From: Ciborinia camelliae
Taxonomy: Eukaryota; Ascomycota; Leotiomycetes; Helotiales; Sclerotiniaceae
Reading direction: 5' to 3'
Length of the DNA stretch: 64,000 bases
Assembly: GCA_025890175.1 (NCBI GenBank)
Contig: JANPYM010000018.1
Span: forward strand, 384,071 to 448,070
The position numbers and the translations under genes are program-made. Below are positions 11,391 to 63,452 of this stretch, one piece after another (position 1 is the stretch's first letter; each line of letters begins with the position of its first letter). Below the pieces are notes generated by a model. It made no database searches and was not told the origin of the DNA. It was given only the letters and a program-made list of their open reading frames with translations.

Positions 11391-12426
11391 ATGGAATTCT
11401 ATATCCCCCAGTTTATTTTCATTATTTGCTTCCTTTGCGCCCTTCCAGCCAGCGCTCAAACCGATCTATCATCGACCGTATGGGTTAAGCCGGATGGTAG
11501 CATTGAAGACTTTTCCCTAACCTATACAGAGGGTTACAATCTTCCTATTACTTGGAATGCAATTCCAGACGGGTATCAATTCAACACCTTATGCAATCTG
11601 TGGATTACGTCGTGGGATTATCGGTTTACGGAATACAGTCAGCTACTTATAGGTATGCTCTTTCACTATGACTTTACTCCCACACTTCTAAGCCCTATGG
11701 CTTTATTTTACACTCTATTTGTTTTGCTAATAACTCTACCACCCGATAGGAAATGTGAATGCGAACGTGAGCGGTACCTATACCTGGACCATGAAAATCC
11801 CACAGAATATTTTAATCCAGAACGCGAAATACGTCCTCCGGTTCATGGATCTCAACCCTGTGTATAACCAAAGTGCAAAAGAGGTCTCGAGTACCGGGTT
11901 TTTGGTTCTTGCAGCTTTTTTGACCTCGAAAACTTCTTCATCCTCGAAAATTTCTTCGTCCTCGACCACTTCTTTGTCCTCGACCACTTCTTCGTCTTCG
12001 ACCACTTTTTCGTCTTCTACAACTTCTTCGTTCTCGTCAGCTTCTTTGCCCTCGACAAATTCTTCTGCTCCAACATCTTCGTCGGCTTCAGGGACGGGTT
12101 TCGCTAGCACCGTGACAACACCACAAGTAACATCGACGGCGGGAATTGCTGCCACATCGGCAACATCCATATCCACATCTGGAGACAGTGGCCTTGGTCG
12201 AGGCACAAAGGCCGGTATTGCTGTTGGTGCTGTGGGCGCAGCTGTGTTTATTGCTGGTTCCGCGTATCTTTTTTTCAGGCGGAGACGCTATGCCAAAAAT
12301 TCATCCACTGAACTTCCTACAGACCCTCCGAGATACTGTAAACCGTCCGAGCAATCTTCTACTAACAACACGAACCTCATCGCCGAGATTGGGATCCATG
12401 AGAGAGTAGAGTTGCAAGGTAGCTAG
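11391..12426 (+). CDS. Secreted Ser/Thr-rich single-pass membrane protein (312 aa)
   Basis: Exons 11391-11652 and 11750-12426; the 97-nt intron has a GCTAATAAC branch site and is phase 1. A signal peptide ends near PASAQ. Residues about 25-135 form an extracellular domain with many Trp, ending in a TWTMKIPQNIL / AKYVLRF pattern, which resembles the Ig-like domain of Kre9/Knh-type cell-wall proteins (loose resemblance only). Then comes a Ser/Thr stretch of about 100 residues that would be heavily O-glycosylated, a transmembrane helix (AGIAVGAVGAAVFIAGSAY), an RRRR stop-transfer signal and a short cytoplasmic tail. The plan matches fungal wall-stress sensors or surface receptors. It is the tandem partner of the gene at 13487, with an identical 262-nt first exon. 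The ATG at 11391 is chosen because it starts the signal peptide. Confidence 0.8.
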
Positions 12427-13486: not shown

Positions 13487-14388
13487 ATGGAGTTCAACAT
13501 CTATACAGTTATACTGGGTATCTACACCCTCCATTTGGAATTAGTTCGAGCTCAAGATCCAGAATCCGCATCAAATTGGGTTGTGCCAAATGGAGATCGG
13601 CCAGACTTCTCTTCAACATTTACCCAGGGTACTGTTCTTCAAGTTATCTGGACCCCAATAAAACCCGGGGCATTTCAACCAATTCTATCTACTCTGTGGG
13701 TCTCAACGTGGGATGGCCGAACTACGCCATTCAATCAGCTACTTGCAGGTATGATAATTTGTTAAAGATGGTCCTTCCTCAGCTCCAAGACTTGGAATCC
13801 TTTGTAATCTCTTATTAATGGTTTTATTATCCTATAGAAAATATAGATACGAATCACATGGGTTCCTTCGACTGGACTATTGCAATCCCAACGAATATCT
13901 TGAATCAAGCCGCTAAATACGTACTTCGAATGAAAGATTTCAATTCTGAGTATAACTCAAGCTCCGAGCAATATCCAAGTCCAGGGTTTATTATTGTAAA
14001 TGGGGATGCTGCCTCTCCCTCAAAGACGGATTTCGCTACCACTATAACAACCACTTCAATGACGTCAACTACTGAACTTACGACCACGTCGACAGCATCT
14101 ACGGCAACACATACCGCCGGCGGTAGTGAACTGAGTGGTGGTGCTATAGCAGGCATTTCTGTTGGCAGTGTGGGCTCGCTACTCTTACTCGCTGGTTCGG
14201 CATATCTTTTTTACAGACGAAAGAAGCGTAATAGGAAATTTCTAACAGAGTCTCCGATCTACCATGAAGTACCCATGCAGCAATCTCCCGTACGTCCGGG
14301 CGCTTCGACTGATCACGGACATAGAGGACCAGTGGAGTTAGAAGGAACTTATAAGGGTCGGAAATGGCCGGTAGAATTGGAGAGCTAG
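13487..14388 (+). CDS. Secreted Ser/Thr-rich single-pass membrane protein, tandem paralogue (270 aa)
   Basis: Exons 13487-13748 and 13838-14388, with a phase-1 intron of 89 nt. Exon 1 is 262 nt, the same length as in the upstream paralogue, and splits the same Gly/Glu-type codon after the NQLLAG block. Order of parts: signal peptide ending near LVRAQ, an ectodomain with matching Trp positions (NWVVPNGDRPDFS; STLWVSTWDG; FDWTIAIPTNIL; AKYVLRMKDF), a Thr-rich stalk shorter than in the paralogue, a transmembrane helix (GISVGSVGSLLLLAGSAYLF) and a YRRKKR anchor. The tail shares the VELEG/VELQG end. The shorter stalk is the main difference. Surface sensor or adhesion role is inferred from architecture alone. 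Confidence 0.8.
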
Positions 14389-39888: not shown

Positions 39889-40459
39889 ACAACTTGAGAA
39901 GAGGTACCTATCTAGATAGGTAATCATCTACCTATTTATATAACTACCTCAATAACTATATATCTATCTAGATATCTATCTAGATATCTATCGATCTAGA
40001 TCTAGATCTTTTCTTATTGTTATCATCACACACAGAGAGAGACATATACATCAGATTCGTCATACATACACATATATACATCATCACACAATAACAAGCA
40101 AGATCTTCCACCTTCATCGTAACGCAACACAATGAATAATAAATAAGATTTTCCATTTTCCATTTTATCTTTTCTATTTTCTTTTTCATTCTTTATAATG
40201 TATAAACTCTATAATCTTTATTCTTGAAGATCTTTTCGGATGTTATGTTACCTTATGTCATGTTAGGTACGTTTTTTCATGCTATGTTACGTCATGTTAT
40301 ATTGTGTTTGGTATCTGCAGCTGTAGCTGTAGCCGTAGCTGCAGTTGTAACCAAAGAGGGAGGTTAGTGAGCTAGAGGTTTCGCATACAGATTTTTATTT
40401 TATTTTTTTAGGGGGGGGAAGTGGTTGGGGATAAGGGGTGAAGGAAGGGGAAGGGGTGT

Positions 40460-40469
40460 NNNNNNNNNN
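40460..40469. other. Assembly gap (10 N) flanked by identical sequence
   Basis: The 46 bases before the gap (40414-40459) and the 46 after it (40470-40515) are the same G-rich sequence, so two contig ends overlap here and the true locus probably has one copy. Confidence 0.9.
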
Positions 40470-41899
40470 GGGGGAAGTGGTTGGGGATAAGGGGTGAAGG
40501 AAGGGGAAGGGGTGTGAGGTATAGGGGGGGGGGGGTTGTAGAGGAGAAAGGCGTGAGGGGTGTATGTATACACCAACCTTCCTCACTATCCATCTAGCAA
40601 ATAAACAAATAAATCATCTGAAAACAAAAATTCACCCCAGATGAACCCTAGAAACCTTGATAAATTAACATTCACTCATTCTGAATGGAAAAATAAGTAA
40701 GTAAACTTCTATTCTATTCATTTATGTAATAGTATCTCGGTAGGTAATGGGGATTTAATGAAGTGAGATGACATGCGATGAGATATTACCTATATGGAGA
40801 TGAGATATTACCTATATGGATCGCAGTCGCCGTACTATAGAGCCTCCCCCCTTCGAGCGAGAGGCGAGAGGAGAGGAGAGGCTTTTCTTTGCCCCCCCTT
40901 TACTCTTTGAAATAGCTTCCTTATTATTAAATTGAATGACCAATAAGCTGGCGCCCTTAAGGTGTCTGTATTCTTTTTAGTCCCGAAACGGCAGAACTCA
41001 AAGCTCGTTGCCTATATACAATACAGTACCTATGGCATATATTGGTATCCCATAACAATTGGATTTGGCGGTGCTAGCTTACTTGCCAACCTTTACAAAG
41101 AGAGGGCTTACAGCTTCCTTCATATCCATGTACGAGAAAAGACGCGTAAGTAGCGAAGAGAACGAGGTGGTGCAAAGCTGTAGCATTCGTCAATTTTCAT
41201 CACAACTTTCTGCAGCCAGTGTTATCTGTAGTCTACCGCTTTGACCGAACCTTGGAGAGATTATTAGGTAGTATTTGATATGGGCGTATGGACGCCTACT
41301 ATCAGACCAGGTTCGAGGCCGAGGCTGGGTGGTAGCTATGCACTGTTGGCGTGCCAGACTGCCCGTTGTGAATAATAAGTTCCACCTGGGCATACGGTAG
41401 TAAGACCTCCCAATTTGATATATTCATTCATAGATATGTCATCTGGGCATCCCCATAGGTAGGTATGATGATATCTCATATGACATACCCAGTCTTCCGA
41501 ACACGTGGGTCCCATTCCCCAGAAATAGGATGATAGCTCCATCGCCTATGATATCCGGATGTTGATATCACGATGGTGAACCAGGCTGGCAACATGTTAC
41601 GGTAATTTCCCATGGAAACTCGGGATAGGTTGGAGTATTGCCATAGCCTCAATACCATTCACTGACCTCACTAGCGCCAAGCCTCAATCACATTGTTTCT
41701 TTTGTTTATTTAGGGGGCTGCGAACGCTCTCCCAGCTACCAGGTACCCTTCATCTACAACACCTTCGTTTTTATCTGTCGGCACTTCAACTTTCTATTCA
41801 ACTGTCTATTCAACTTTCAATTCAACTTTCTACTCAAATTTCTACTCAACTTTCGATTCAAATTACAGGTAAATACCCAAAGAATACTAGGTAGCCATC

Positions 41900-42805: not shown

Positions 42806-45680
42806 AGTATGCAGGCATGCAAGCATGCGATGATAGATATGTTATGATACCACGCCACGTCTTGTGATCTATGCATGGGGGGGGAATATTTTTCTTTTTT
42901 CTTTTTTCTCTTTTTCTGGGGGTGGAGGGGAGTGGAGGATTTAATGGGGTAATAACACCTGGTACAAAACAGGGAAGCTAAAGAAAGGAAGGAAGGAATT
43001 CGCATTCGCATTTGTATTTCCAGTGGCGTCGGGTATCTAGGTACCTATCAAAGGATCATTGTTTGTTTCCATTGTTTCCATTGTTTCATTCATTCAATCA
43101 ATCTCTGGATGGATGAAATCAAAATCACGTTCGTGTCATCTTGGGATCGGGAAAGGGGACTTTCAATTCATTTCATTTCCGAACCGGGAACCATGGGTTT
43201 AATCAATAGGCTTGCCTTGCCTTACCTACCTTGGGTCTGTCTATATCTCCCATTGGTTCTTTGATAGGTATTAATGAACAGATGTTTTTCTTTTGCGACC
43301 TGTCCTGCTTTGCTTTGCTTTGCTGTAAACTGATCGGTATTTTGAGTGTGTGAATCTGAAACGTGATATTTTTTGGTTGATTAGACAGGTAAGGTAGGTA
43401 GGTAATCTTAGATGAAGTTACATGAGGTGGTTTTCTTATTATTCACCAGGTCTTGTTATAGTTATGATTTTAGTGTGAAGTTGATTAGGATAGGTAGTTA
43501 AATTCATATTCATGGTTGATTTATTTATTTGTACAATAGAGTCTGATATTAAACATTGAAGCTTTGTTGGATAGTCAAAGTATCCATTGTCGATTTGTAT
43601 TAGGGCCTAATATTTCATACTCATTTATACCAGCGAGTCTAGTATGTATAGTCTATTTGTATAACTGATTTTACTATTCACAACTAATTTATACAATTAA
43701 GCTAATATTTTCAGCCGCTTGATATTATAGAGCTTAATATTCAAAACTAATTTGTATCATACCGGTCTAATATTCGAAACCCATTCACATAATCGGCGCT
43801 AAATGTTCAAAACTAATCAAGGTTTAATGTTGAAAATATCTATATGGCAAAGGCCTAGATAATGCTCAACACTAATTTGCATAATCAAGGCCTAATATTT
43901 GTATAATCACGGCTCAATATTTGAAAATGTTTGAGGAAATATAGTTAAGAACTAGCATCTCTAAAAATACTATATACTATCTCGATCAATGCCCACGAGT
44001 AAAGCGATTCATATGTTCAAAATTATTGGATGCTTGACTAAGTACATTTAAAACAGTATCAAACGACCATGTATAACCATTAGCACGGGTTGAATGAATA
44101 GGAAGATAAAAAGTATAACCTTCTATTTCGTCTTTGGAACGCTATATTGATACGTTTATCTTATGTGAAATCGAGAGTATAAATATTGTAGTATTATTAT
44201 GACTGAGAAGCTAAATTTTAAGGAATTGGGAGATGATATATAGAGAATCAATACAAGGCCAACGGGACGATATAGAGCATTTATATCAAGATCTTGTAAG
44301 AGACTTCGGGAACTCTTGGAGAAGGGTCAATTGGGCATTAAATAAAAGGTTGGGCTAAGAAACGTGTGTTGATTTAATCGAGAGATGTATAGAAATGGGC
44401 ATCGGAATTTGAGGAATGTCGATTGGTATAACAGCACCTGCTAGTCCTTGTCGAAGGTTATTTTGTCATGACGCTTAGCTTTTTTCTTGCTGATTATGGA
44501 TTTAGACCGCTTGCTCTCTACATTCGGTGATGCTTCCACTGCAATTTTATCGGCCTCGATATAAGCTCAATCCGATCAGTTCCGAACTACTGTTTATCGG
44601 CGGATCGGCTGATTCCTCCCAAGTAGAAACGACAAGACTTCTTGGTGCTCATGCTCATTATATGCCATGCCATGCCATGCTGAATTTTATAATGCCGGCG
44701 ACTTTGAGATTATAGCAGGCTGAATACTCAAGTGTGATTTACACAGCCGAGCTTTAATGTTCAAAAGTGATTTATATAATCGAGGTTGGATGTTTAAGAG
44801 TAATATACACAATCAAGATTCATGTTTGGGAATGATTAACGCAATGGAGGCTTCATGTTTCAAGTAATATCAAATACTAGAAATAAATTATGATAAAGAT
44901 ATTATAAGCGTTTATTTGCGTATCGCACTTCATCGAAATAGCAATAGAAATATTCAGCTGTCTCTCATATAGATAAAACATGTTTCAGAATAATCTTTCA
45001 CTAGAACTAAACATCAGATCTGGGTGGACAGTAACCGAAGTAGAAAAGCTTCAAACAAAGACGACAGCAAGTGTATCAATTTCTCATCCACTTGAATTCT
45101 TGAAAATAAATTCATTGTATTCCTGTGGTTGCATTGGTGGTCACCACTTCAACAGAAATAAAGCCCCCCTTCTTTTAGAATAAATGCAGGTGTTGGTTGG
45201 GTCTATAGAAATATAGACACAATTCGCAAGACAACATGTACGTATGGCCATCCAATATCATTATCATCAAGGTGCGCTCATCCTGGGCTCATATGATCCT
45301 TTCGATGACCCAATAAAGGGTGTGGTTTTGAGTATAGGCAAGACCAGATACCAAAAGAATGATTTGATCACAAAGATGTTTTGCGTATTTACCTAAGGTA
45401 GGTAGGTATATTGACGACTCTGGGTTTAAGAATCCGAGGATTCAAATTGAGACTGTCGCCACGCATGCAAAGGCGGCGCGTGAGGCTGGTTCTGATTTCA
45501 TGTCTTGAATGCACAAAAACCTTCTAACAGAATCCACGGCGATTTTGGTTTCTCCACGAAATGTCAGGCAGGATATTTCCAGTATCTCAATAGCAAAATG
45601 GGTCATTCATGAAGTTATGTTTGATTATACATTACAATTCCAATGTGTATGCGTAGAAAACTTTCGTCTCCGAGCTTGAA
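42806..45680. other. Gene-poor AT-rich region with repeated short phrases
   Basis: 2.9 kb without a supported gene. From 43530 to 43930 and again at 44710-44880 the sequence is built from imperfect repeats of a phrase like 'CTAATATTCAAAACTAATTTGTATAATC', at intervals of roughly 30-60 bases. AGGT-type motifs lie at 43388-43405 and 45390-45403. This looks like an old, decayed minisatellite. Confidence 0.45.
43540..43930. repeat. Degenerate minisatellite (CTAATATTCAAAACTAATTTGTAT-like units)
   Basis: At least eight imperfect units containing 'CTAATATT' and 'AACTAATTT', with variable spacing. A weaker block of the same phrase lies at 44730-44870. Differences between units are mostly transitions. 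Confidence 0.55.
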
Positions 45681-47349
45681 GTGCGAGGATTGCAACCGAA
45701 CGTGATCAATCTCCTGGCTGGAATCCCTTCTTACGACACAGAAGATGGGCCGACGATGGGCTTAATATATACGGCCTTGGAGGAAGAGATGTGGAATCTG
45801 GAAGGGCAGAGGGTAATACGCATGCCATACCATTACGTATGGAGGCAGTCCACAAACATTCGGTTGCTGAAGTCTTTAATATTACCCCTGATACCGAGTC
45901 TTCATCCCTCATACAAACCATAGAAGAGGATGTTATTAGATCACAGTCGGCTGGTGATGTAGATACTGTAAAGACCACTGCCTCTATCATCGGAGAGAAA
46001 CATCATCGGTATCATTTCCGACACTCTACTTCCTTAACCAAACCAGAAACTTGTGAACTTGATACAGGAATTGTAAATGCAAAAAGGCGCACCTGGCTAT
46101 CGGTACAGTTGGCGAAACACATAGTGGCGATTTTCTGTTCATCATGATTATCACTTCTCCTTGCTTTTGTACCAGCAGGATTCGCTTCAAATTATACCAA
46201 TTTACCACCGGTAGTCAACTTTAAACTGAACTTCCTCGCCATCTTCCAAGTGCTTCAATTGTTGGTATGGCTATGGATGAAGAAATGTTGCGTGTTGGAA
46301 ACGCTGTTGGTGTATTAATCTATACGACCTTCGGAAATATCGTGCAACTGACTACCCCAATCCTTCTGCTAAAGACTCGCCCAGTAGAGATTCTGAAGAC
46401 TTCACTAGTTGGTGTTCTTGGTGGAGTTCTGTTACCCATGGGCGCAAGTTATCTTGCAGGTGGAAATCATCGACTGGAGCAGTTCTTTGATGTTAGGTCC
46501 GCAAGCTACGTTTGCAATTTAACATTATCTGTGGCCAGTGTGATAATACCAACAGGATGTCATATATCTGCCCATTCGAATACGGAGACGATTGCGGCAC
46601 AATGCCGGTGAACGTCGATTTTGCTTCTGTTTGTGTACGGCATCTATCTGTCCTTCCAACTTCACATGCGCATGTTTTTAATCTGGAAGCCGGCATGGTA
46701 ATTTCAAACTTTCAACCCGCTTAATAAGTAGTGACTGGGTTGATATACACCGAAAACCCACCAAAACGAGCCATCAAAGGTGCCGCAGAAGGCGTAGTTA
46801 CTAAAACTCAACCTTCCCCTCCATCAATAGTATCCTCAATAACCGAGGAGGAAGAGCCCCAACTATCTTTGTTCATCGGTATAATTAGCCTCATAATCGG
46901 GACAGCCGTTCTCGCCTTCAACACCACTTTCGCCATCGAAAGTATCGATGGCTTGACAGAACATCATGCCTCACCCAGTTTCGTCGGTTTAATACTCCTT
47001 CCTTTCCTTGACAATGATCTCCTGCTCATTACATGTATGTGCACGTATACATCATGGCATAGGCGTGAAAATCACTCCAAATTTCGCTGCTAATTATGCC
47101 TCTTATCATACTCATCACTTGGATTTGGGGCATTGATGATATGGGTTTGTTGTGTGATGGATTCCAGGTTTCATCACTGTTTACGGCGGTTTTATTTCTT
47201 AATTTTCTTATTGTGGATGGAAAGAGTAATTAGCATGTGAATTTGATTTGCATCCCCGTATCTACACATTGCTAACTCAATATAGTCTACAAGGTGTTTT
47301 ACTGCTTTCAATTTATGTCATGATAGCTATAGCAGCTTTGTACAACTAG
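45681..47349 (+). pseudogene. Decayed Ca2+/H+ exchanger (Vcx1/CAX family)
   Basis: Translating in pieces gives a near-complete CAX protein: an N-terminal cytoplasmic part (about 45800-46100), AKHIVAIFCSS then a stop where the family has Trp, LSLLLAFVPAGFASNYT, a one-base shift near 46250, then EEMLRVGNAVGVLIYTTFGN, ILLLFVYGIYLSFQLHMRMF after another in-frame stop (TGA at 46609), then LSLFIGIISLIIGTAVLAFN and SFVGLILLP. Next a deletion or shift near 47020, then SLLIMPLIILITWIWGIDD, LFLNFLIVDGKSN, a broken intron, and LQGVLLLSIYVMIAIAALYN. The signature GNAVEL motif reads GNIVQL, so the ion-binding Glu is gone. Family members pump Ca2+ into the vacuole; this copy cannot. Several independent lesions make sequencing error unlikely. 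Confidence 0.85.
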
Positions 47350-48924
47350 ATTAATCTCGACCTATTCACACATTATCTCTATAATATTTGAACCATTGAT
47401 AAGTATTTTAATGATTTTGTCTACATTTGCACTTCTGGAAAAGATTATATCTTCCTAAACCAACTGAACACATTTGGTAGTATATAGATTTCTTGTCACC
47501 GATCTTAAATCCTTGAATGTATACTTGATAATCTTTTCATTTCTGTAGCTGGCAACTAAAAGAAAATGGACCAAGATTCTGATTTATTACACACAAAGAT
47601 GCATCTAGCGTGAATTGTTTTGCGAGAATAAGATATTCACCAGGTATGCACAATTTCACCGTCACGGTGCCTTCCATTTACAGAAACAGCAGACTTGGCC
47701 ACTTATGTACTATAGTAGTATACCTTCCTTCTACAAACATAATTCGATAGTAAGAGATCATTTATCTGTTATGCGTTTATCTCTCTTTCCTTTCGGAACA
47801 AATTGAATCAATGATACTCCTCCAGCTACTTGCAAGAGAAAGAGCAATATTGTAAACGAGCGCACAAAGTCTGAAATTGCCTCATCATTAAAACACCCAG
47901 AGACCACCCAAGGGTCTCGAGCGCGACTTCCTAGCCATCCTACCATTTCATCAATTTCTATATTGATGTCCAAAGAAAAAGCCCCTTTTCCAAATTCCAT
48001 GGACAGATTGACGAAATCTGGTGGTACAAGATTTAATTTATAATCTAATGCCAAATACCAAAAGCCAAAACCCAAGCCCATTGAGTACCATCTTTCATGC
48101 CGATTATCCATCAATTATTACCTGCCTACCTACCTACCTAATATGCATCTTCAACCCTTACAATTCCCCCTTCATAATTCCATGGTAAAATTCAATATGG
48201 ACTCTGAAGTACGTACGTAAATAGAAAGAGCTACGAACGATTTCAACAGCGGAGATAGTGACGCGGTGCTGACCTAGCATTAATAAGTTTATCCCCATCT
48301 TTGTGCTCCGCACGAGATATTTCCACGATGAGGGGGTAGTTCGTGTTGTAGGGTACCTAAATTCTAATGCCTATAGAGAGGATGATTATAATCCGAACGA
48401 TGATACTGCGATAATATAAACCGACTCTGTCATCTTACCTGGCATATTGATCCTTAACCACGGGCTATGATGCCCAAAAGCGCATCTTAGAAAATGCGAC
48501 AAGCGGCCGCATTTGCGCAGGGGTTGTCACGCTCAAGACATCGTCTTGTTGTTCCCGTGAATGCAGAAATGAAGCGTGGGAAGATAATGAATGTCAGGAC
48601 TTGATGGTGGGATGATGGATTGCGAAGAAAGGTATATAAAGTCCTGGATGGCTGGTGAAGATATAGCAAGTTTTATCCTTTTTATAGCGACTGCTATACG
48701 AATTCATATCGCAATTGAATGTGGATCCCATATATCCCCTTTTCCTAGCTTCTTGTATTGATTTAAGCGAAAGAAATCAGCCTTCGAAAAAGAAAATGTT
48801 TTTCAATATCAAAATCGATGCAAGCTTCCCGCCGATACAGTTTGGTTTAGTGCGTTGCCCACTCAAACCTCCCCAACCCCCCCCCCCCCAAACACCATAC
48901 TACACCACACCAACTAACCAGCAC
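47350..48924. other. Intergenic between two pseudogenes
   Basis: 1.6 kb, AT-rich. Contains a CCTGCCTACCTACCTACCTA microsatellite at 48120-48140 and nothing else I can name. The frames at 47615-48114 have no family resemblance. Confidence 0.4.
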
Positions 48925-49290
48925 CCACAAAGTAAGCGGCTGTTCCTCCAACATCGGCAAATCCCTCGCGCAAGAAATCTTCCACACAACCCCGCACACC
49001 CTCATAGCCACAGCGCGCACGCCTCCTCGCTCACCTCCCTGCCCTCATCCCCACGTGTTCTCCCCCTCGCCCTCGACATCCCATCCTAACATACATCTCC
49101 GCGGGCTAACGACCAGTCTCTCCACCTCCCCACACATCGACATCCTCGTCCACAATGCCAGGTACGGCTTTCTCAGCGCTACCTCGACTATCCCCTCCTC
49201 AGGCTTGCGGAAAACCGTAGCGACGAATTTCTAGGGCGCCATCCACTGATCTCGAGAAGCGATGCTGATGGATTTTCCGAGGCGTGAATG
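48925..49290 (+). pseudogene. Decayed short-chain dehydrogenase/reductase
   Basis: One frame gives the start of an SDR Rossmann fold (SGCSSNIGKSLAQEI ... LIATAR); a shifted frame continues with RVLPLALDIPS; the first frame then resumes with HIDILVHNARYGFLSAT, the usual strand-4 NNAG region, and TVATNF followed by TAG where the family has Trp. At least two frameshifts and one Trp-to-stop change are present, and the catalytic Ser and Tyr-x3-Lys part is not readable. The C-rich tract just before it (48885-48899) may be an old intron. Confidence 0.7.
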
Positions 49291-50916
49291 CGGGGACGGG
49301 AGGCTTGCTGATGCAGATGAGATCCACGGGTTGCGTGAAGGGTTTTACGGGACCGGCTTATGATCACGCGGGGTATGTATGATTTTCCGTCCTGCTCTGC
49401 AATCCGGGCAAAAGAGTATGCGGAAACCCGATCGTAAATTTCCCTTGGGAGGCTTCATCGAATCCCTGTCCTGCGAGATCTCCCCATCCTGGAACATCCG
49501 GTTCCGGATTATCGAGTCCGTAGAACTTAGCTCCATGACTAAGCTAGTGTATGTAGAACTATTTTATAACAACAAAATCTATACCTTTCCACAACAGCAT
49601 TCGGATCGAGCCATATTCTCACAATCTCGAGGCTCCGACCATATTCACGCGCGAACGAAAGCTAGGACAGAAGTGTTTGATAAGTCAGTCGGTTGTTCGG
49701 ATCCATATACCCCAGAGTTTGGTTTCCTGTATTTCCGTTCCAATGATATGAAATCGCCAACGAGAAATATTCAGAGTGTATATAATCTTACCTCCATACC
49801 GATGACGAGTTGAGCCGACAGAGATCTTAGACGACGTAAGCGAATAACCGATACCCCCGACAGCAAAAGAACGTCCTTGAAGTATCTGCGTTCATTTTTC
49901 ATTTTTCATTCCATAAATAAAAACCAGAGTGCAAGATCTATCTGATACATGAAAAGCACTTCAGATTACCCGATGTATTTTTCGAACCGGAGGGGCTAAT
50001 CATGAAACGCGCAGCCGAGGAATATGATCTGAACCGCGTCTTCATCGTCAGAAGTGTGACTACAGCCATGATAACGAGAGTCAACAGTTAACTCTCATAA
50101 TTATAACAAGCACCAAAGGTAATTGGGTAGATGATAGCAAGAATGATTTATATGGTTTTCATTTCGGCGGAAATATGGGTGCGATAATGGGGCTTTTCAT
50201 GCCACGCCATGTGTATTTTTGTATTTTTCCAAATACCACGTTCGGGCAAACACTAATGCACTCGAATGTGATACATTCTGGAAAATGTAAAGATTGGTCG
50301 TGGGAGATTGGAGAGAAATGGGAATTTCTTTCGTGTTCCATATATACACCCCAACAGTGCGTGAGCACGAGCTAGCCTCCTGGGTAAACGAGGAGGTATT
50401 TAAAATATTAGGTATGAGTTTATCTGGTTTCTAATGCAGATAGCACGCGTGGGAACAAAAAGGAAAAGGTCCCAAAGTCCGTGGACTATATTTCTAACAA
50501 GACACCATGAATGCCAAAGATACCATGAGGAGACCTTGCTCATACCTTTATCGTTTCAAAGGAGCATCTAATACGGACTGAGAAAAAATGCATACAGACT
50601 TAAAAAAAAGCTAAATTTTTCCGGACCAATGTAAGTTAGACGTACCCAAAGCTTGTGGTGAGCAGAAAAATTGATATCTTGGTAAACTTTATGTTCCCCC
50701 TCGAGGTTCATTCCTCAAGACAATGCAAGACCAGACATCAGACAAAGGCCAAGCTCACAAAATGAATATACCGCTCCCCATCCACATATATGTATGCATG
50801 CATGCAGACTTCAATTTCAGCTCTGTCGTGACCCACCAGCGTGACACCCATATCCCCTCATATCGAATCCCAAGCAAGCCATGCCAACCCCCCAACCAAA
50901 AGCCCTCCCACACGCA
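49291..50916. other. Intergenic with repeat relic
   Basis: 1.6 kb with no supported gene. A 144-codon frame at 49379-49813 covers the third copy of the dispersed repeat and has no recognisable protein features. Confidence 0.4.
49542..49567 (-). repeat. Dispersed repeat relic, copy 3 (inverted)
   Basis: The reverse complement shares 26 consecutive bases with 32131-32180 and most of them with 30739-30788. Flanking similarity fades quickly. Confidence 0.6.
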
Positions 50917-51468
50917 CTAAGCCAACAAACCCACGACGCCATAAACGACCCAACTCATGGCCAAAAACAATTGATTCGCGCGAACCCGACTCGTCAAGCC
51001 CATCGCATCGTGAAAATCGCCCGTGCCGGGAATCGGCAACTTCGGTTTACTCTTCCAGAAATCCCCCACGTAATTTCGCGTCACGAGGAGCACTGCAAGA
51101 TTCACGTTCGAGAGGGCGAATATCGTGCTGTGCGTATAGGTGACGAGGAGAAATGTCGAGGCGGTTATGAAGGTGAGGACGAGCTGGAGCAGAGAAGCAT
51201 GTTAGGTTCAGGTACCTCCAGCTAGTTGTGGTTGACATAGACGTGGGATGAGTGAGAGAAGACTTACAGCTCCAACACTGGCAGCCTGTGTCGTACGCGT
51301 CTTGAATAATTGATCCTCGGCGAGATTCGAATATTGGGCAGCTTTGACGGCTGTGTCTTCGTATTTGAGAAGCTTGGGGATGGCGATGGAGGAGAGGTAG
51401 AGATTGTATCCTGTGAAGACCATTTGACCGGTGCCGATGAGACCGAGGATTGCGGCAAAGAATACCAT
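50917..51468 (-). CDS. Small multi-pass membrane protein (155 aa)
   Basis: Exons (minus) 51468-51268 and 51183-50917; the 84-nt phase-0 intron runs GTAAGT...TGCTCCAG. Four hydrophobic stretches are visible: at the N-terminus (VFFAAILGLIGTGQMVFTGY), after the intron (VLTFITASTFLLVTY), IFALSNVNLAVLLV, and the C-terminal LFLAMSWVVYGVVGLLA. A charged segment (KYEDTAVKAAQYSNLAEDQL) lies between the first two. I do not recognise the family; small four-helix proteins like this are common in ascomycetes. It lies outside the proposed peptide cluster and may be unrelated to it. Confidence 0.72.
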
Positions 51469-52294
51469 TTTGATTATGTCGTTGATTTATAGGTGAAATT
51501 GAGGATTTTTTTTAGGGATTGGTACAATTGAGGTTATTATGGAGAGAAGAAATTTATATTTTTATTTCTTCGGACGTCAGGTAGAAGGAGTATTGAAGCA
51601 CATGAATATGCCCGGTTTAGAAGGCAATGATGTCATTCTTGAAGCGGGAACGCGAACCTTCTTGATTTGTGAAACTGCATCCATATCCATATTGGTAGTC
51701 TAGAATAGAACCCCTCGTCATCAAAAATAATTCATACATTCATCTTAAAAATATAATATAATATAATTGTCCAGTTATTGTAAGATGGAAATTCAAAATC
51801 ATCGATACGACATTGATGGGAGGAGATCGATATCGAGATCAACGCTGAAAATGTGTGACCGATGATTAAGCGGTACTGTACCGAACAGTCACACCTAAAT
51901 TCCAATGTTAATGTCAATTTTAATGCACACGAAGAATCCGAAATATCATTTCTATGTAGTCGGATGATGGTTAATGATTTGCTGGATATGTGCTGCTGGA
52001 AGTAGATAGTCATATCGTATCGTATCATAGAGCTCAACCTATCTATAGAAAAAGTAAATATCATTCCCCAGAAACAAATATCCTGCTGAGAAAGTAAATT
52101 AGACATCCATCCCCCATCCAAATTCCCCAATCCCAACCCACAAAGATATAAATCAATCAACTAATTAAAAGAGAGGCCATATCCCTGAGAGGCCTCCATA
52201 ATTTTCGCCCTATCACTCATTATCATCATCCGAACCCGAAGGGGAGGGGCCAGAAGTCACGCTACCTATGCTAACTACTGTTACGAATCCTGTG

Positions 52295-52981: not shown

Positions 52982-54702
52982 TCACAATTTCTTCCCCAAG
53001 ACGTGTGCCTGAACCCCCTTTGAATCCAAGCGAGCAGGATACGCCACGTGAAAATCATGGGTGAACTGGACGTCTCCAAGATCCGTCTCGAAAAGCTGCA
53101 TATCGAATCTCGCCACCGCCGCGAGCGCCAAGAACATTTCCGCGTGTGCCAAATTGATCCCGATACAATTTCTCGCTCCCTTGTTAAACGCCATCTGATA
53201 TTTCTTGCGCTCAACGCCTTCGGGGCCTATCCATCTCTCCGGTTGGAAAGCCCAGGGATCGGGGAATATCGTCTCGTCGGTGTGGACTACGAGCGTGGTT
53301 TGACTCATGGGGGTTCCGGGTGGGATGGCGTATTGTTTGTATTGTAAGGTTTCGTCGGGGGCAATACGACAGACGCGTGCTGTGACTCCAAATGATAGCC
53401 TATTACCTTCTGCAATGCACCCGCTGAGATATGGCAACTGTTCGAGTTGTGACCATGATGCTGATTCTGGTACTGTGGCTAGCTCAGCCCGAAGCTTGGC
53501 CATGCATTCAGGGTTATTGAGGAGATGGAAATGTGTAATGGCGGTTGATTTTGCCGTAGATTCGGTGCCTATTGATTATATCGATGTTATTTATATTCCA
53601 TCTCGGTTTTCATGCTTTAGTAATACATACCTGCCATAACAAGCAATGTTGCCTCCTGTTCAAGACGCAATGCACTTTTCTCAGCAGGTGGTAGATTTGA
53701 ATTATCACGAAGCTCGTAAAATATAGAGCGTCTTTCGCCTTTGAAGAGATTATCTGTGTCTCCCAGGACCTGATCAACTTCTTCTCGAATACTCTAGAGA
53801 TCCGTCAGAGAAAGATGCATGACAAGATGATGGAACGAAACTTACATCGGTAAAAGCTACCATGTCCAGCGCACCCGGTGGCATGATATGTTTTGCTATC
53901 GGAAAAGGTATCATATCCAGAAGATCAAATAACCATGGGAAGTGCTGATTGACTTTCACTCCCATCAATAATCTGGATATATTGTTTCTTTGCGTCGACG
54001 CTTTCTCTTCATTTCCAAGAAGATTATTATCATGTCCGAAACTATAGAACGACACGACACTAGATCATTCTCAGTAAATAGTACTTCAAACCAGGCTAGG
54101 GATCAACAGACTCATTGGCAAACGCAAAATATACATCAAGTAAATTGACAGGTGTCTGCGTGATTTCGTGGGCCGCAATCACTTCAACTAATTTCTCGAC
54201 TTTGTCTTGGAGTACGGACTCAAACTTTGAAACACTTTTCTTATTGAAGAAAGGATTGAGTGCTTCTCGACGTCTTCGATGAAGATCATTTTGTATAGTT
54301 CCTCCAATCGATAAAGGTACTTTTAACGTTCTTGTTTGAAACGAATATTTCTCTCGATTTCGAGAAGCTGGAGCATATATTTCGTCAAGAAATGTGACAT
54401 CTTTGATATGGATTTCCCATGGTGTAACTCGTATAATTGGACCTAATGAGGAATTATCAATATTTCTTCGGTACAAGTTGAGTTTCGTGAAGAAGGCGCA
54501 TACCATATTTTTCGTGAAGATCTCTTATGTGCCATACGAATTGACCCGGCTTAATCACATCGTAGTAAAATTCATACCATGAGGTTAAAGCTGCCAGACG
54601 AGGACCTGGAATGTGGGAAATGGGACTCAAGAATAATCTCCATAGAGATACGTAAATGATTTGTGCTAAGATTAGACTGATGATTATTTCTACAACTGCC
54701 AT
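52982..54702 (-). CDS. Cytochrome P450 monooxygenase (497 aa)
   Basis: Exons (minus) 54702-54504, 54442-54112, 54059-53846, 53793-53631, 53568-52982. An N-terminal membrane anchor (VVEIIISLILAQIIYVSLW) is followed by the Pro-rich hinge SHIPGPRLAALTSWYEF. The oxygen-binding I-helix reads AG-TEST across the last intron, the K-helix E-x-x-R is AEGNR, the PERF-type motif is FQPERWIGP, and the heme loop FNKGARNCIGINLA has the Cys ligand at residue 437. Overall it resembles trichodiene-oxygenase-type fungal P450s. Intron 2 uses a GTCTGT donor; only that splice gives the family-like FANDVVSFYSFG. It sits about 460 bases from a UstYa gene on the same strand, so oxidation of a peptide in the same pathway is a reasonable inference, but a stand-alone P450 is possible. 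Confidence 0.93.
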
Positions 54703-55164: not shown

Positions 55165-56010
55165 CTACACCTTCAATCCATCGGTCCTTGCAACCTCACA
55201 ATGTCCAAAATGATCCAAAAGACTGCTTGGCTCACCGTCACGGTAGCATGCAGAGTGCTTACCAGCCCAATCACTAAGCGCGCTCCAATCTCTACATTTA
55301 CGAAGCTGACCATCCCCCGTCGTATTCAATCCCCAGGAATACAGCAAAGTATCCCCTGCCGTACATTGAATATATTGTCTGAAGTTATCAAAGCAATGTG
55401 TGGAATGCCCAATCGGATACGTCAATTCTTGCCCTCCAGCGAGTTCGTAAAATGTTTTCCGGACGATTTTCTACCTTCTTGTTAGGTGGATTAAAGTATG
55501 ATGTGGAAGAGGACTTACGAGGCAATGAAGCTGATGGTAAGCATCGATCACGTAAACCCCCTTACTTGGGTCATCCGGAAGGCTGATTGATTGCGGTAGC
55601 TCTTTTTCAGATGCCCAGGAATGGTCCACCGCTACAATTCCATGTGCAGGTATGATTTCATCCCATAGCTGATCGACAGCTTGCTGTTTGGTGTGAGAAG
55701 CAGAACTGTAGCTTGACCACCATGTATAGTTCTGGATGTGAATTCCAGAAGTTAAATCGAGAGCAGCTGGAAATTGTCAGTGGTAATGCTTGTTTAATTT
55801 TCAGAAGAACTCACGGTAGCCAAATTCCTCTTGAATCGGGATATATCTTTTATTGAAAGCACTGATTGAGGATATCGTCGTCGAAAGTGCAAGAAGAACG
55901 ATCACGATATCTTTCATGGAACTCGGAAATGGTATTCGACCGGAGAGTTTCGGTTTTTCCGCATAGTTCCCTCCATCTAAAGGAGTATACACAGGTTCTT
56001 GTGGTGCCAT
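55165..56010 (-). CDS. UstYa-family oxidase 1 (DUF3328, 249 aa)
   Basis: Exons (minus) 56010-55815, 55766-55519, 55470-55165. A cytosolic N-terminus and one membrane helix (DIVIVLLALSTTISSISAF) are followed by the UstYa catalytic-type domain. The first H-x-x-H-C motif is YHQLHC (His143-Cys147) and the second is HCFDNFRQYIQC (from His173); KGVYVIDAYHQLH and WSALSDWAGKHSACYRDG are typical. UstYa proteins are copper-type or metal-dependent oxidases that cyclise or otherwise oxidise ribosomal peptides (ustiloxin, phomopsin, asperipin) and also occur in other pathways. The second intron falls directly after HCL in phase 0, exactly as in the UstYa gene at 62249, so the two are homologous. Divergent from the receptor-like gene 465 bases upstream; close to the P450. 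Confidence 0.88.
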
Positions 56011-56475: not shown

Positions 56476-57728
56476 ATGTCAGATCCAACTGCTGGGCCGC
56501 CGGACATTAATGCTCTGGTTGCGACATTTCACCCCGTAACTCCATCATCCATCATTGCTGTTGGGGCTGTAATGCCCAGCCTGGCTTTCATTGCCGTATC
56601 TCTTCGATTCTACGTCAAAATAAAGAAGAGAACGGTCGGCCTAGATGACTGGCTGATACTTGTTGCTCTCATCATCTGTTGTGGATTGGGAATCACACTC
56701 ATCGTTGGTAAGTAGAAATTTATTTTCATTTCTCCTAGTCCGTTTTTCTGATGATCTCGAAACTACAGGATCGGCAGTGAAGGCTTTGGGTCAACCTACA
56801 CCATTGGGTGATGGCCCACTCGGCTTCTTTCACGTTATCAATGATGCTATTGTTACTACCGAGAAGGTACGTCAGTCTGTGTTATGAAATAGGAGGTCAA
56901 ACTAATACGATTCCTTGGAAGATCAAATATGCCTTCAACCTTCTACAGATGATTGCTTTCGGAGCTATCAAACTCTCAGTTCTATTCTTCTACAGAAGGA
57001 TCTTTCGAGGCCAAATCTTCGACATCGCATCTTGGACGATGGTTGGAGTCGTCATAATATGGACTTTCGGATTTTTCTTCACCATGATGTTTGAATGCCG
57101 AACGGATTTCTGGGCATTCTGGTCCACACTGAATGATCTCCTAACACACTGTCTCGACGACGTCAAGTTCCAAAGAGTGCTATCAATTTCGGACGTCATC
57201 TCCGATATCCTAATTCTTCTCATTCCCATCCCCATCATATGGCAATTAAACTTGTCCATCGAAAAGAAAGTGGGTGTGTGCGGTGTCTTCCTCATGGGAT
57301 CATTAGCCGTCGCCTTCGGAATCGTCCGTTTAGTGGTCTACGACAACCGTCTCGCCGACGCATTCGCAGGCTCCCAAGGAATTCTCCTCCTCTCCACATG
57401 GTTCTACTGGAGTCTTATTGAAATGGGCATGGCAATCGTAGCCGCCTGTCTGCCTACTCTACGCCCTATTTTTGGCAGCCTGGGTACATTCAACAGTCTT
57501 ACGGAAGTCATTCGAAGCATTTTTTCATTGCGATCCATTCGATCGCAAGGCTCGTCACGATTTTCCGGCAAGAGGAAACCTCAGGATGGTAGTACGAAAC
57601 TTAAGGAACCGCCTAATTTGTCCGAAGAACATTTTGGCGTCGATCGTTTGGGAGAACATTATTCTATGCAGGGTGTACGTCGAGGTGGGATTTTGAAGAG
57701 TGATTCTTATTCTGTCACGGTGGTTTGA
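56476..57728 (+). CDS. PTH11-like / fungal rhodopsin-domain membrane protein (378 aa)
   Basis: Exons 56476-56707, 56769-56866 and 56922-57728. Seven hydrophobic segments fit the order of the family: SSIIAVGAVMPSLAFIAVSL, DDWLILVALIICCGLGITLI, the FNLLQMIAFGAIKLSVLFFY block with RRIF, WTMVGVVIIWTFGFFFTMMF, the SDVISDILILLIPIPIIWQL block, VFLMGSLAVAFGIVRLVV and WSLIEMGMAIVAACLPTLRP. These blocks match the integral membrane domain of PTH11-type and related proteins, presumed G-protein-coupled sensors in plant-pathogenic fungi. The C-terminal tail is Ser/Arg-rich. Role in the peptide cluster is unknown; such genes are sometimes found in clusters. Confidence 0.85.
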
Positions 57729-60001: not shown

Positions 60002-60415
60002 ATGCATCTCCTCAACATCAACATCATCATCCTATCCTTAACTCTCAGTGTCCACGCCATACCCGGTACATCCATCCATCCATCCATCCATCCCCCCCCC
60101 CCCCCAAAAAAAAATCAAAACACAAAACTAACACGCACCACAGTTCCCCACAACGGGGGCGTATCGATCCCCAACATTGACGGCAGCCTTGACACCGCAG
60201 AGCTATGGAGAAAAAGCAACGCCGGGGTCTCGATCCCCAATGCTGACGGAACATCCGACGCCGCGGAATTATGGAAGAAGAGGGGGAATGGAGCCGTGGA
60301 GATCCCCAATGCTGATGGATCGTCCGATGCCGCCGAGTTGTGGAAGAAGAGGGGGAATGGAGCCGTGGGGATTCCGAATGCGGATGGGGGGGAGGATGTT
60401 GCGGAACTTTGGTGA
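60002..60415 (+). CDS. Secreted repeat-containing peptide precursor, Kex2-type (111 aa spliced)
   Basis: Exons 60002-60065 and 60144-60415; the 78-nt intron (GTACAT, CTAAC branch site, CACCACAG) is a multiple of three without stops and contains a CCAT/poly-C/poly-A microsatellite, so it hides in the frame. A signal peptide (MHLLNINIIILSLTLSVHA) is followed by four tandem units of 21, 22, 23 and 20 residues sharing a V-x-IPN-x-DG core and an AELW end. Units 2 and 3 end in Lys-Lys-Arg, unit 1 in Arg-Lys-Ser, unit 4 at the stop. Kexin proteases cut after KR, so the chain would be cut in the secretory pathway into near-identical peptides. This is the layout of fungal RiPP precursors (ustiloxin, phomopsin, epichloecyclin). 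Flanking UstYa genes support this. The repeats have no Tyr or Cys. It is not an alpha-pheromone precursor: no known pheromone core. Confidence 0.8.
   Translation: MHLLNINIIILSLTLSVHAIPGTSIHPSIHPPPPPKKNQNTKLTRTTVPHNGGVSIPNIDGSLDTAELWRKSNAGVSIPNADGTSDAAELWKKRGNGAVEIPNADGSSDAAELWKKRGNGAVGIPNADGGEDVAELW
60155..60412 (+). repeat. Four-unit tandem coding repeat in the peptide precursor
   Basis: Units at 60155-60217, 60218-60283, 60284-60352 and 60353-60412. Conserved positions: Val, Ile-Pro-Asn, Asp-Gly, Asp, Ala-Glu-Leu-Trp. Units 2-4 are closest; synonymous differences (CTATGG, TTATGG, TTGTGG, CTTTGG) show the protein sequence is kept by selection rather than by recent copying alone. Confidence 0.85.
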
Positions 60416-61670: not shown

Positions 61671-62218
61671 GGCCCTATCCATCTATCCATCCATCTATCC
61701 ATCCATCTAACCATCCATCTAACCATCCATCTATCCATCCATATGACTCAGAATGTGCGTTTTCGCCCGGCCATCCCACATACGTACCTAGGTAGGTAAG
61801 TAGGTATCGAAGTGGCGAGAAATGCCGTAAGCATGTATTGAGTTTCCGACGCTCTGTCATGGTAGGTATGTACTAGGTAGTATTTCATATTGCACATAGA
61901 TAGTAAGCTAGTGAAAGCATGGGGGCCAAGCCAAGCCATACTCAAGCCATACTACACTTAAAATCCCGGGTGATGTTTTTTTTTGGCCCCCCTTTCTCCC
62001 CCAAAAGTTGTGGAAGAGTTAGAGTACCGTATTAGCACCCTGAACCCTTTTTTACCTTCATGGTCCCTCCTTCCATGAATTTCTCGACTCTCGCCCGCTT
62101 GTTCTCTTGTTCTCTTTGAATATTACCCACCGACCGACCGATCGACTGACTTCCTTTTACATCTCTTTTCTACTTTCCCATAGCATCACATGATCCCAAC
62201 CCATCCCATCCCATCCCA
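61671..62218 (+). repeat. 548-base segment duplicated after the N-gap
   Basis: Matches 63453-64000 along its whole length; the only difference I found is one extra G (GATAGTAAG here, GATAGGTAAG there). The copy runs to the window edge. Confidence 0.9.
61675..61742. repeat. (CCATCTAT)n / (CCATCTAA)n microsatellite
   Basis: Tandem CCAT-based units; frames over it read Asp-Gly-Trp repeats and are not genes. Confidence 0.88.
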
Positions 62219-62248
62219 TCCCATCCCAACCCATCCAACAAAAAAAAC

Positions 62249-63225
62249 ATGACCTCCTACACCGACTCCGAAACACCCAGTTGGTCGAAAGAAGCTGGAG
62301 CCGAAGATGCCGAACAAAATCTACTACCCAACCCAGACTCCTCGGCTTCGCATTCCCCTCACCGCGCGACATCTGCACTGCGCACCAAACAATACCTGCT
62401 GCTAGCCCTTTCCATCCTCTTGACCAGTATCACGAGCGGCGTTTGCGTCTTCATGCTCATGAGCGTTTCCCAACGAAAACCAGCGCAAAATATAAATACA
62501 CTCACATCATGTAACCCAGTTCTCCCCCCTCCCCCCCCCCCCCCGCACCCCAGCAGTCGCATCCCACTCTATAATTCGCGAGAGACTATACTAACACCCA
62601 TAAAACCAACAGCATCATTAACCAGCATCGACCAGCGCTATGAAAAACTGCACACCTACACCGATTTTAGTTCTCCGGACGATGCCATCTCCGCCTCTGC
62701 ATGGAACGAATACGTAATCAATGGGTTTGTCGCGCTACCGCATGCGTGGGCGCAGGACCGCGGGTGGCCACTGGGTCGTGAGATGCCTGGGGATCCGCAG
62801 AAGGGTATTTATGTTGTGGATGGATTTCATCAATTACACTGTCTGGTACGTCTTATTCCGTTTACCATGCTTGCACAATCTCTCATTTTCATCTTTCATC
62901 TTTCATCTTTCATCCCCCACCCCCAAAAAACATAAACTCACCCCCACCCGTCCCACCCCAGATGTCGATCCGCAGCGAAGTGCACTCCCTGCTCTCCGGC
63001 CAACCCATACCGAACATAACCCATACGAAACGTCATCTAAACCACTGCTACGACGCGCTCCGACAAGCGATTATATGTCGAGCGGACGCGACGCCGCTGT
63101 ACGTGCCGAAAGATACGTTTTTTGCAGGGGATGGCCAGGAGAGATTGTGTCAGAGTTGGGGGGCGTTACAAGAATGGGTTGTGGGGAGGAGTATTTGTTA
63201 TAACGGGGTGATTTGTGAGGAATAG
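62249..63225 (+). CDS. UstYa-family oxidase 2 (DUF3328, 286 aa)
   Basis: Exons 62249-62845 and 62962-63225; the 116-nt intron follows HCL in phase 0, the same place as in UstYa 1. An acidic, Ser-rich N-terminus (about 45 residues) leads into a membrane helix (LLLALSILLTSITSGVCVFML). After a Pro-rich linker coded by a poly-C run come the family blocks: SASAWNEYVINGFVALPH, QKGIYVVDGFHQLHC with H-x-x-H-C at 194-198, then NHCYDALRQAIIC with the second motif from His227, and a C-terminal W-x5-W plus Cys. Same reaction class as UstYa 1: oxidation or cyclisation of a secreted peptide. It lies 1.8 kb from the repeat precursor on the same strand, the strongest positional support for a peptide pathway. 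The poly-Pro linker length may vary between strains. A short intron could also remove it, but none is needed. Confidence 0.88.
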
Positions 63226-63442
63226 GAAGAGGTGATGTTTTGAGTTGGGGGTCGATGGGTTGGGAAGATGAGGAGAGGAGCTAAACTTTCGAGAATGAAA
63301 GAAGGTATGAGCGCCGATCCCTTCGACAAAGTAAATGAAGGGGATGAAGTGAATGACACTTTATCATCGGGAAGGAAGTTTGAAAATTTTTATATACTGA
63401 AATCAGATTATAGAATCTAATTAATCTGTACAGTATCATCTG
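63226..63442. other. 3' flank of UstYa gene 2 up to the gap
   Basis: About 220 bases of AT-rich sequence; presumably 3' UTR. No gene. Confidence 0.4.
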
Positions 63443-63452
63443 NNNNNNNNNN
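63443..63452. other. Assembly gap (10 N)
   Basis: Ten N. The sequence resuming at 63453 repeats the one from 61671, so contig order or copy number is uncertain here. Confidence 0.95.

Follow-up and report, generated by a model that had tools for sequence, protein, structure and literature searches.

A putative dikaritin-type precursor with tryptophan-bearing, tyrosine-free units between two UstYa genes of Ciborinia camelliae

A 64,000-nucleotide stretch of the Ciborinia camelliae genome (the window; contig C10, 384071-448070) contains a small gene for a repeat protein that has one UstYa gene upstream and one downstream. This gene probably encodes a dikaritin-type precursor: a Kex2-processed repeat protein (KEP) with units that UstYa enzymes would oxidise. 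Its splicing, transcription, cutting and modification, like the target of its product, are inferred. The initial annotation had proposed a Kex2-processed precursor of a dikaritin-type RiPP; with cutting and oxidation as its predicted parts, the proposal is supported by the published definition of KEPs, by the two UstYa genes and by a relative in Monilinia. Neither the intron nor the UstYa genes nor the absence of Tyr had been part of that annotation.

The precursor gene has two exons on the forward strand and occupies 60002-60415, exactly where it had first been placed, with the ATG at 60002 and the TGA at 60413-60415. Its spliced product would have 111 aa. The parts of the gene are as follows.

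60002-60065, + strand: exon 1 (64 bases), encoding the signal peptide MHLLNINIIILSLTLSVHA together with the start of unit 1
60066-60143, + strand: predicted intron (78 bases), with GT donor at 60066 and CAG acceptor ending at 60143
60144-60415, + strand: exon 2, encoding the remainder of unit 1, units 2-4 and the stop codon TGA
unit 1, + strand: IPVPHNGGVSIPNIDGSLDTAELW, 24 aa, followed by RK at 60209-60214
60215-60274, + strand: unit 2, SNAGVSIPNADGTSDAAELW, 20 aa, with RK before it and KKR (60275-60283) after it
60284-60343, + strand: unit 3, GNGAVEIPNADGSSDAAELW, 20 aa, followed by KKR at 60344-60352
60353-60412, + strand: unit 4, GNGAVGIPNADGGEDVAELW, 20 aa, abutting the stop codon with no basic tail

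The protein thus reads MHLLNINIIILSLTLSVHA, then IPVPHNGGVSIPNIDGSLDTAELW-RK-SNAGVSIPNADGTSDAAELW-KKR-GNGAVEIPNADGSSDAAELW-KKR-GNGAVGIPNADGGEDVAELW. AELW closes every unit, and the four units share the pattern V-x-IPN-x-DG...AELW. This agrees with the earlier description of a signal peptide followed by four near-identical units, two of which end in Lys-Lys-Arg; another, unit 1, ends in RK. On hydropathy and the -3/-1 rule alone, the N-terminus qualifies as a signal peptide (best 12-residue mean hydropathy 2.32, Val/Ala at -3/-1), and a similar N-terminus is found in the Monilinia relative (P0002). There is a Trp in each unit and one His in unit 1; Tyr, Phe and Cys do not occur. The absence of Tyr is the main peculiarity of the precursor. 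Calculated monoisotopic [M+2H]2+ values are 987.956 for unit 2, 986.948 for unit 3 and 970.953 for unit 4; intact unit 3 and unit 2 less 2H coincide to four decimals. A Pfam search with the precursor gave no domain match, and all matches listed for it in the 46.2-Mb, 27-contig assembly fall at this single locus.

The proposed intron lies just past the signal peptide and consists in part of a CATC microsatellite, a C run and an A run. Its length is divisible by three and it contains no stop codon; an unspliced reading would therefore also connect the signal with the units, and the frame does not force splicing. The intron is proposed because the low-complexity residues that it would encode are absent from P0002. 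In the public annotation (NHQ30_011215; P0001, 161 aa) the 5' part differs and the signal exon is missing.

The units are conserved as peptides. When the mature part is compared with itself in 20-residue stretches, the best match agrees at 19 of 20 positions, while the maximum in 300 shuffles was 8. Pooled divergence between units is 0.82 at silent sites (pS) and 0.21 at amino-acid-changing sites (pN). For the six unit pairs, each of 16 codons, pS is 0.62-1.12, pN is 0.08-0.28 and pN/pS is 0.13-0.30; the ratio is rough, since pS is near saturation. IPN, DG and AELW are fixed among units and the silent positions are nearly randomised. Silent change far exceeds amino-acid change, which argues for selection on the peptide and not for recent DNA slippage: purifying selection acts on the units. 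A chance repeat or non-coding microsatellite is ruled out by the shuffle test and by the mostly silent differences between units.

A test proposed with the initial annotation was whether the repeat pattern is conserved in relatives, and the same unit pattern was found in Monilinia vaccinii-corymbosi. The hypothetical protein DSL72_002051 (P0002, 87 aa) is 62% identical to the precursor in the search table and 79% identical over aligned positions. The two proteins share a similar N-terminal signal (MHLVNILIISLGLSAHAIPVP in Monilinia), the unit pattern and the C-terminal AELW; they differ in the number of units (three in Monilinia, four in Ciborinia) and in the separators (KK as against KKR/RK). 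Neither DSL72 tags nor RiPPs nor DUF3328 come up in the main text of the paper on the M. vaccinii-corymbosi genome (PMC8022979). The database search considered candidates of 0.55-1.75 times the query length that share 5-residue words with the query, so longer or diverged relatives may escape it. Within these limits it gave no further relatives: two of 26 candidates matched at E <= 10, one of them being C. camelliae's own protein.

KEPs are defined by a signal peptide and by three or more tandem repeats, each 8-100 aa long and set off by KR, KK, RK or RR (PMC7329392). The repeats here are 24, 20, 20 and 20 aa long and are separated by RK, KKR and KKR; the predicted protein is a KEP by the published definition. 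The genomic criterion for dikaritin clusters is a KEP gene with UstYa genes near it (PMC9632046, PMC10512285). Two such genes accompany the precursor gene, and by this criterion the predicted locus is a dikaritin cluster; chemically, its product is a putative dikaritin. The genes around the precursor are listed below.

52982-54524, - strand: cytochrome P450 (PF00067, 5.8e-32 for 52985-53575), exons partly modelled
55165-56010, - strand: UstYa-2 (PF11807), exons 56010-55815, 55766-55519 and 55470-55165, 249 aa, HQLHC...HSTHC
56476-57728, + strand: seven-helix 'fungal rhodopsin' domain protein (PF20684, 1.9e-38 for 56790-57725), start codon placed by eye
62249-63225, + strand: UstYa-1 (PF11807/DUF3328), exons 62249-62510, 62613-62845 and 62962-63225, 252 aa, HQLHC...HLNHC

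The UstYa genes near the precursor are the strongest support for the dikaritin-type reading. UstYa-1 lies 1.8 kb downstream of the precursor on the same strand, with no other annotated gene in between, and the two bear consecutive tags (NHQ30_011215 and NHQ30_011216); UstYa-2 lies 4.0 kb upstream. PF11807 matches UstYa-1 at 2.8e-24 (in a two-exon reading) and UstYa-2 at 3.6e-24. In the alignment, both proteins have an intact HxxHC(x)nHxxHC motif with its four His and two Cys, and an N-terminal hydrophobic segment is visible by eye in both. This motif is the binuclear copper site in CctR, where alanine mutants of its residues lose activity (PMC12435403). In the three-exon model of UstYa-1 a poly-C run falls within an intron, and the product aligns better with the Monilinia proteins; the public models (P0003, P0004) take the last exon in another frame. 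The public models of both the precursor and UstYa-1 thus appear wrong, and automated mining may miss the locus as a result.

UstYa-1 and UstYa-2 do not form a clear sister pair, since their best matches are not mutual. In a comparison that covered the window and 20 further UstYa regions, the best other match of UstYa-1 is UstYa-2 (35% over 168 aa); the best match of UstYa-2 is in L031, and L034 and L039 also come ahead of UstYa-1. The UstYa-1 database search gave 14 matches with species named for five; besides Ciborinia, these were Monilinia fructicola (EYC84_002568), M. laxa (EYC80_001172) and Aspergillus violaceofuscus, and M. vaccinii-corymbosi was not among them. No Sclerotiniaceae, Ciborinia included, were named among the 15 matches of UstYa-2. 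Solved structures held no relative of UstYa-1 at E <= 1. Relatives of the precursor and of the UstYa proteins were thus found in different named species, and both together only in Ciborinia. This split may come from missing or wrong annotation, as seems to be the case in Ciborinia; it could also be a sign of loose pairing between precursor and UstYa genes.

The neighbouring P450 perhaps belongs to the same cluster, as its nearness suggests. Membership of the seven-helix protein, which lies between UstYa-2 and the precursor and whose first exon matches below the cut-off, is uncertain. To the right of UstYa-1 are an inositol monophosphatase and an OPT transporter and, further off, an MFS transporter. 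The first two are taken as housekeeping genes, which probably makes UstYa-1 the last gene of the cluster. Five frames at 45680-52160 gave nothing in Pfam.

A 10-N gap at 63443-63452 lies close to UstYa-1. Its flanks, 61671-63442 in the window and 24-1792 in stretch L011, repeat each other with 99.7% identity over 1773 columns, with no mismatches and two gap openings. The copy past the gap adjoins it directly and encodes an identical UstYa-1 protein. A tandem duplication of UstYa-1 was therefore rejected, and the repeat is read as an unmerged contig overlap. NHQ30_011216 and NHQ30_011217 are probably two records of one UstYa gene. A second 10-N gap is found at 40460-40469 in the window, spanned by a 56-base tandem repeat (40412-40530).

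In the proposed pathway, the signal peptide would take the precursor into the secretory pathway, Kex2 would cleave behind the dibasic sites and Kex1 would remove the basic residues. Four peptides of 20-24 residues with Trp at the C-terminus would be released. One or both of the nearby UstYa/DUF3328 enzymes, perhaps with the P450, would oxidise the units by cross-linking, desaturation or hydroxylation; the product would be a secreted dikaritin-type ribosomal peptide. The last unit stops at Trp in both species, at the point where internal units would end after trimming, which suggests that Trp is the mature C-terminus. The P domain of Kex2-type proteases falls at one locus among the matches listed in the genome. 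KK and RK are poorer Kex2 sites than KR. KK was counted as a site in the 2020 KEP survey (PMC7329392).

The dikaritins, UstYa-dependent fungal RiPPs that include ustiloxin, phomopsin, asperipin-2a, epichloecyclin and victorin, resemble this locus in having a secreted precursor with dibasic repeats near UstYa/DUF3328 genes. They differ from it in that the units in the window have Trp and neither Tyr nor Phe, and that conservation covers the greater part of the 20-residue unit. To our knowledge, the characterised dikaritins have short cores. A Tyr in the unit, the usual although not strictly defining cross-link site of dikaritins, is absent here. The ustiloxin B cluster also has a P450 nearby (PMC6941272). 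The ustiloxin and phomopsin clusters have a tyrosinase and an S41 peptidase, whereas contig C10 has no match to either: tyrosinase (PF00264) has 12 matches in the genome and S41 peptidase (PF03572) has four, none of them on C10. Asperipin-2a is alike in its small gene set; it has one UstYa homologue (PMC12048977).

Units without Tyr have a precedent. In a survey of 7878 KEPs, the 15 nearest genes include a DUF3328 gene in 22%, and the count peaks at the next gene; repeats of DUF3328-linked KEPs contain Tyr in 65.6% and Trp in 20.5% (PMC7329392). In the same survey (Umemura 2020), KEP type P-3 is set apart from Tyr-bearing types by Trp with Pro; like the precursor, its units contain Trp and Pro, and four of its seven members are DUF3328-linked (PMC7329392). 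The P-3 genera given are Fonsecaea, Cladophialophora, Galerina, Psilocybe and Coprinellus, and the likeness to the precursor is one of composition. Given the Trp share and the P-3 type, units near UstYa that carry Trp but no Tyr belong to a minority, though one with precedent. The precursor belongs to a known group; its Trp-only units with UstYa on either side are the feature of interest.

UstYa-family proteins have been reported to desaturate (PMC10512285), and the family is implicated in hydroxylation, halogenation, macrocyclisation and isomerisation (PMC12435403). With this range of chemistry, oxidation without Tyr is plausible. One more specific possibility, which we put forward tentatively, is a Tyr-free dikaritin: UstYa enzymes, perhaps with the P450, would place a cross-link or another oxidation on the C-terminal Trp or the conserved V-x-IPN-x-DG to give a Trp-bearing, perhaps macrocyclic product, made by flower- and fruit-infecting Sclerotiniaceae. 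A search of literature listings found no report of such chemistry for UstYa enzymes. The initial annotation did not know the unit from described dikaritins and considered that the product may be undescribed, which fits the search: no paper on the peptide was found in the literature listings or the papers cited here.

The genome has 58 UstYa matches, which we grouped into about 33 regions; nearness to one is therefore, by itself, weak evidence. Twenty of these regions, each as a 10-kb stretch, were examined for further repeat precursors, and these were found in four.

L023, 2061-2372, - strand: repeat precursor, Tyr-bearing unit SDAKEALNAYQMFSDVE
L032, 8333-8590, + strand: repeat precursor, Tyr-bearing unit SADEDLIEQY
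L033, 7354-7827, + strand: repeat precursor, Tyr-bearing unit EPDRSVVGTGSDRY
L036, 1547-2038, - strand: repeat precursor, Tyr-bearing unit AKDADTAIVYPAE

Like the precursor in the window, these four have a hydrophobic N-terminus (picked up by script in L023, L032 and L033, by eye in L036) and dibasic-site repeats close to a UstYa gene. In contrast to the window precursor, which has no Tyr, their repeat unit contains Tyr. A genome search with the window precursor matched none of the four at E <= 10. The L036 unit AKDADTAIVYPAE is similar to a conserved motif from the literature, DADAATXYV[A/V]D (PMC6339444). The detector reported no precursor in 69,501 bases of control sequence (window 1-50000, L011 and L012, where L011 holds the second UstYa-1 copy) and none in 20 triplet-shuffled replicates; it reported one (L031) when the 20 UstYa stretches were reversed. 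It found the pheromone gene on contig C7 and reported the one on C6 only as an antisense frame. In L031, 6568-6821 is a 90-base tandem repeat of 2.8 copies within a UstYa region; it has no regular dibasic sites and so was not called.

Three other explanations of the precursor were weighed. The first is that Kex2 and Kex1 yield linear peptides with little or no modification, which act as a hormone-like or host-directed signal, and that the UstYa genes act elsewhere. Many KEPs do give linear peptides (PMC9769878); the units here have neither Tyr nor Phe, their conservation extends over most of the 20 residues and not over a short core, and no other named species yielded both the precursor and UstYa-1. 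However, two motif-intact UstYa genes lie within 4 kb, one on each side, and repeat precursors also occur in four of the 20 other UstYa regions, so that we regard this explanation as rather unlikely.

The second explanation, an uncut repetitive cell-wall or surface protein with the basic residues as mere linkers, is improbable. The RK after unit 1 and the KK in the Monilinia copy are of the weaker kinds of site, a point in its favour. On the other hand, Lys and Arg after the signal are confined to unit boundaries and absent from the last unit, and UstYa genes are close by.

An alpha-factor-type mating pheromone precursor, which has the same general plan of signal, repeats and dibasic sites, is barely credible and was rejected: the units lack Cys and the GQ/PG turn, the WC..PGQ.C pattern has 17 matches elsewhere (four on C6 and 13 on C7), WCGRPGQPC is reported for 31 of 36 Sclerotiniaceae species and the putative a-factor of the class mostly ends in CTVM (PMC10569646), which is absent from the precursor, and a nearby DUF3328 gene is lacking for 98.6% of 216 putative pheromone KEPs (PMC7329392). 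The alpha-pheromone repeats of C. camelliae form two separate loci, C6:490646-491041 (L015, four matches) and C7:164732-165670 (L019, 13 matches).

As of 2022, no more than five dikaritins were on record (PMC10512285), whereas 22% of the KEPs surveyed lie near UstYa genes. A Trp-bearing, Tyr-free precursor flanked by UstYa genes is a compact test of these copper enzymes on such units. C. camelliae, a camellia-blight fungus, infects only camellia flowers, according to a published abstract; the locus is a candidate source of a secreted product in a fungus with this restricted niche.

Elsewhere in the window, the neighbouring reading frames 11734-12426 and 13819-14388 each encode a Ser/Thr-rich region and, after it, a hydrophobic segment that is similar in the two (AVGAVGAAVFIAGSAYLFFRRRR and SVGSVGSLLLLAGSAYLFYRRKK). 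These are seemingly paralogous membrane-anchored proteins.
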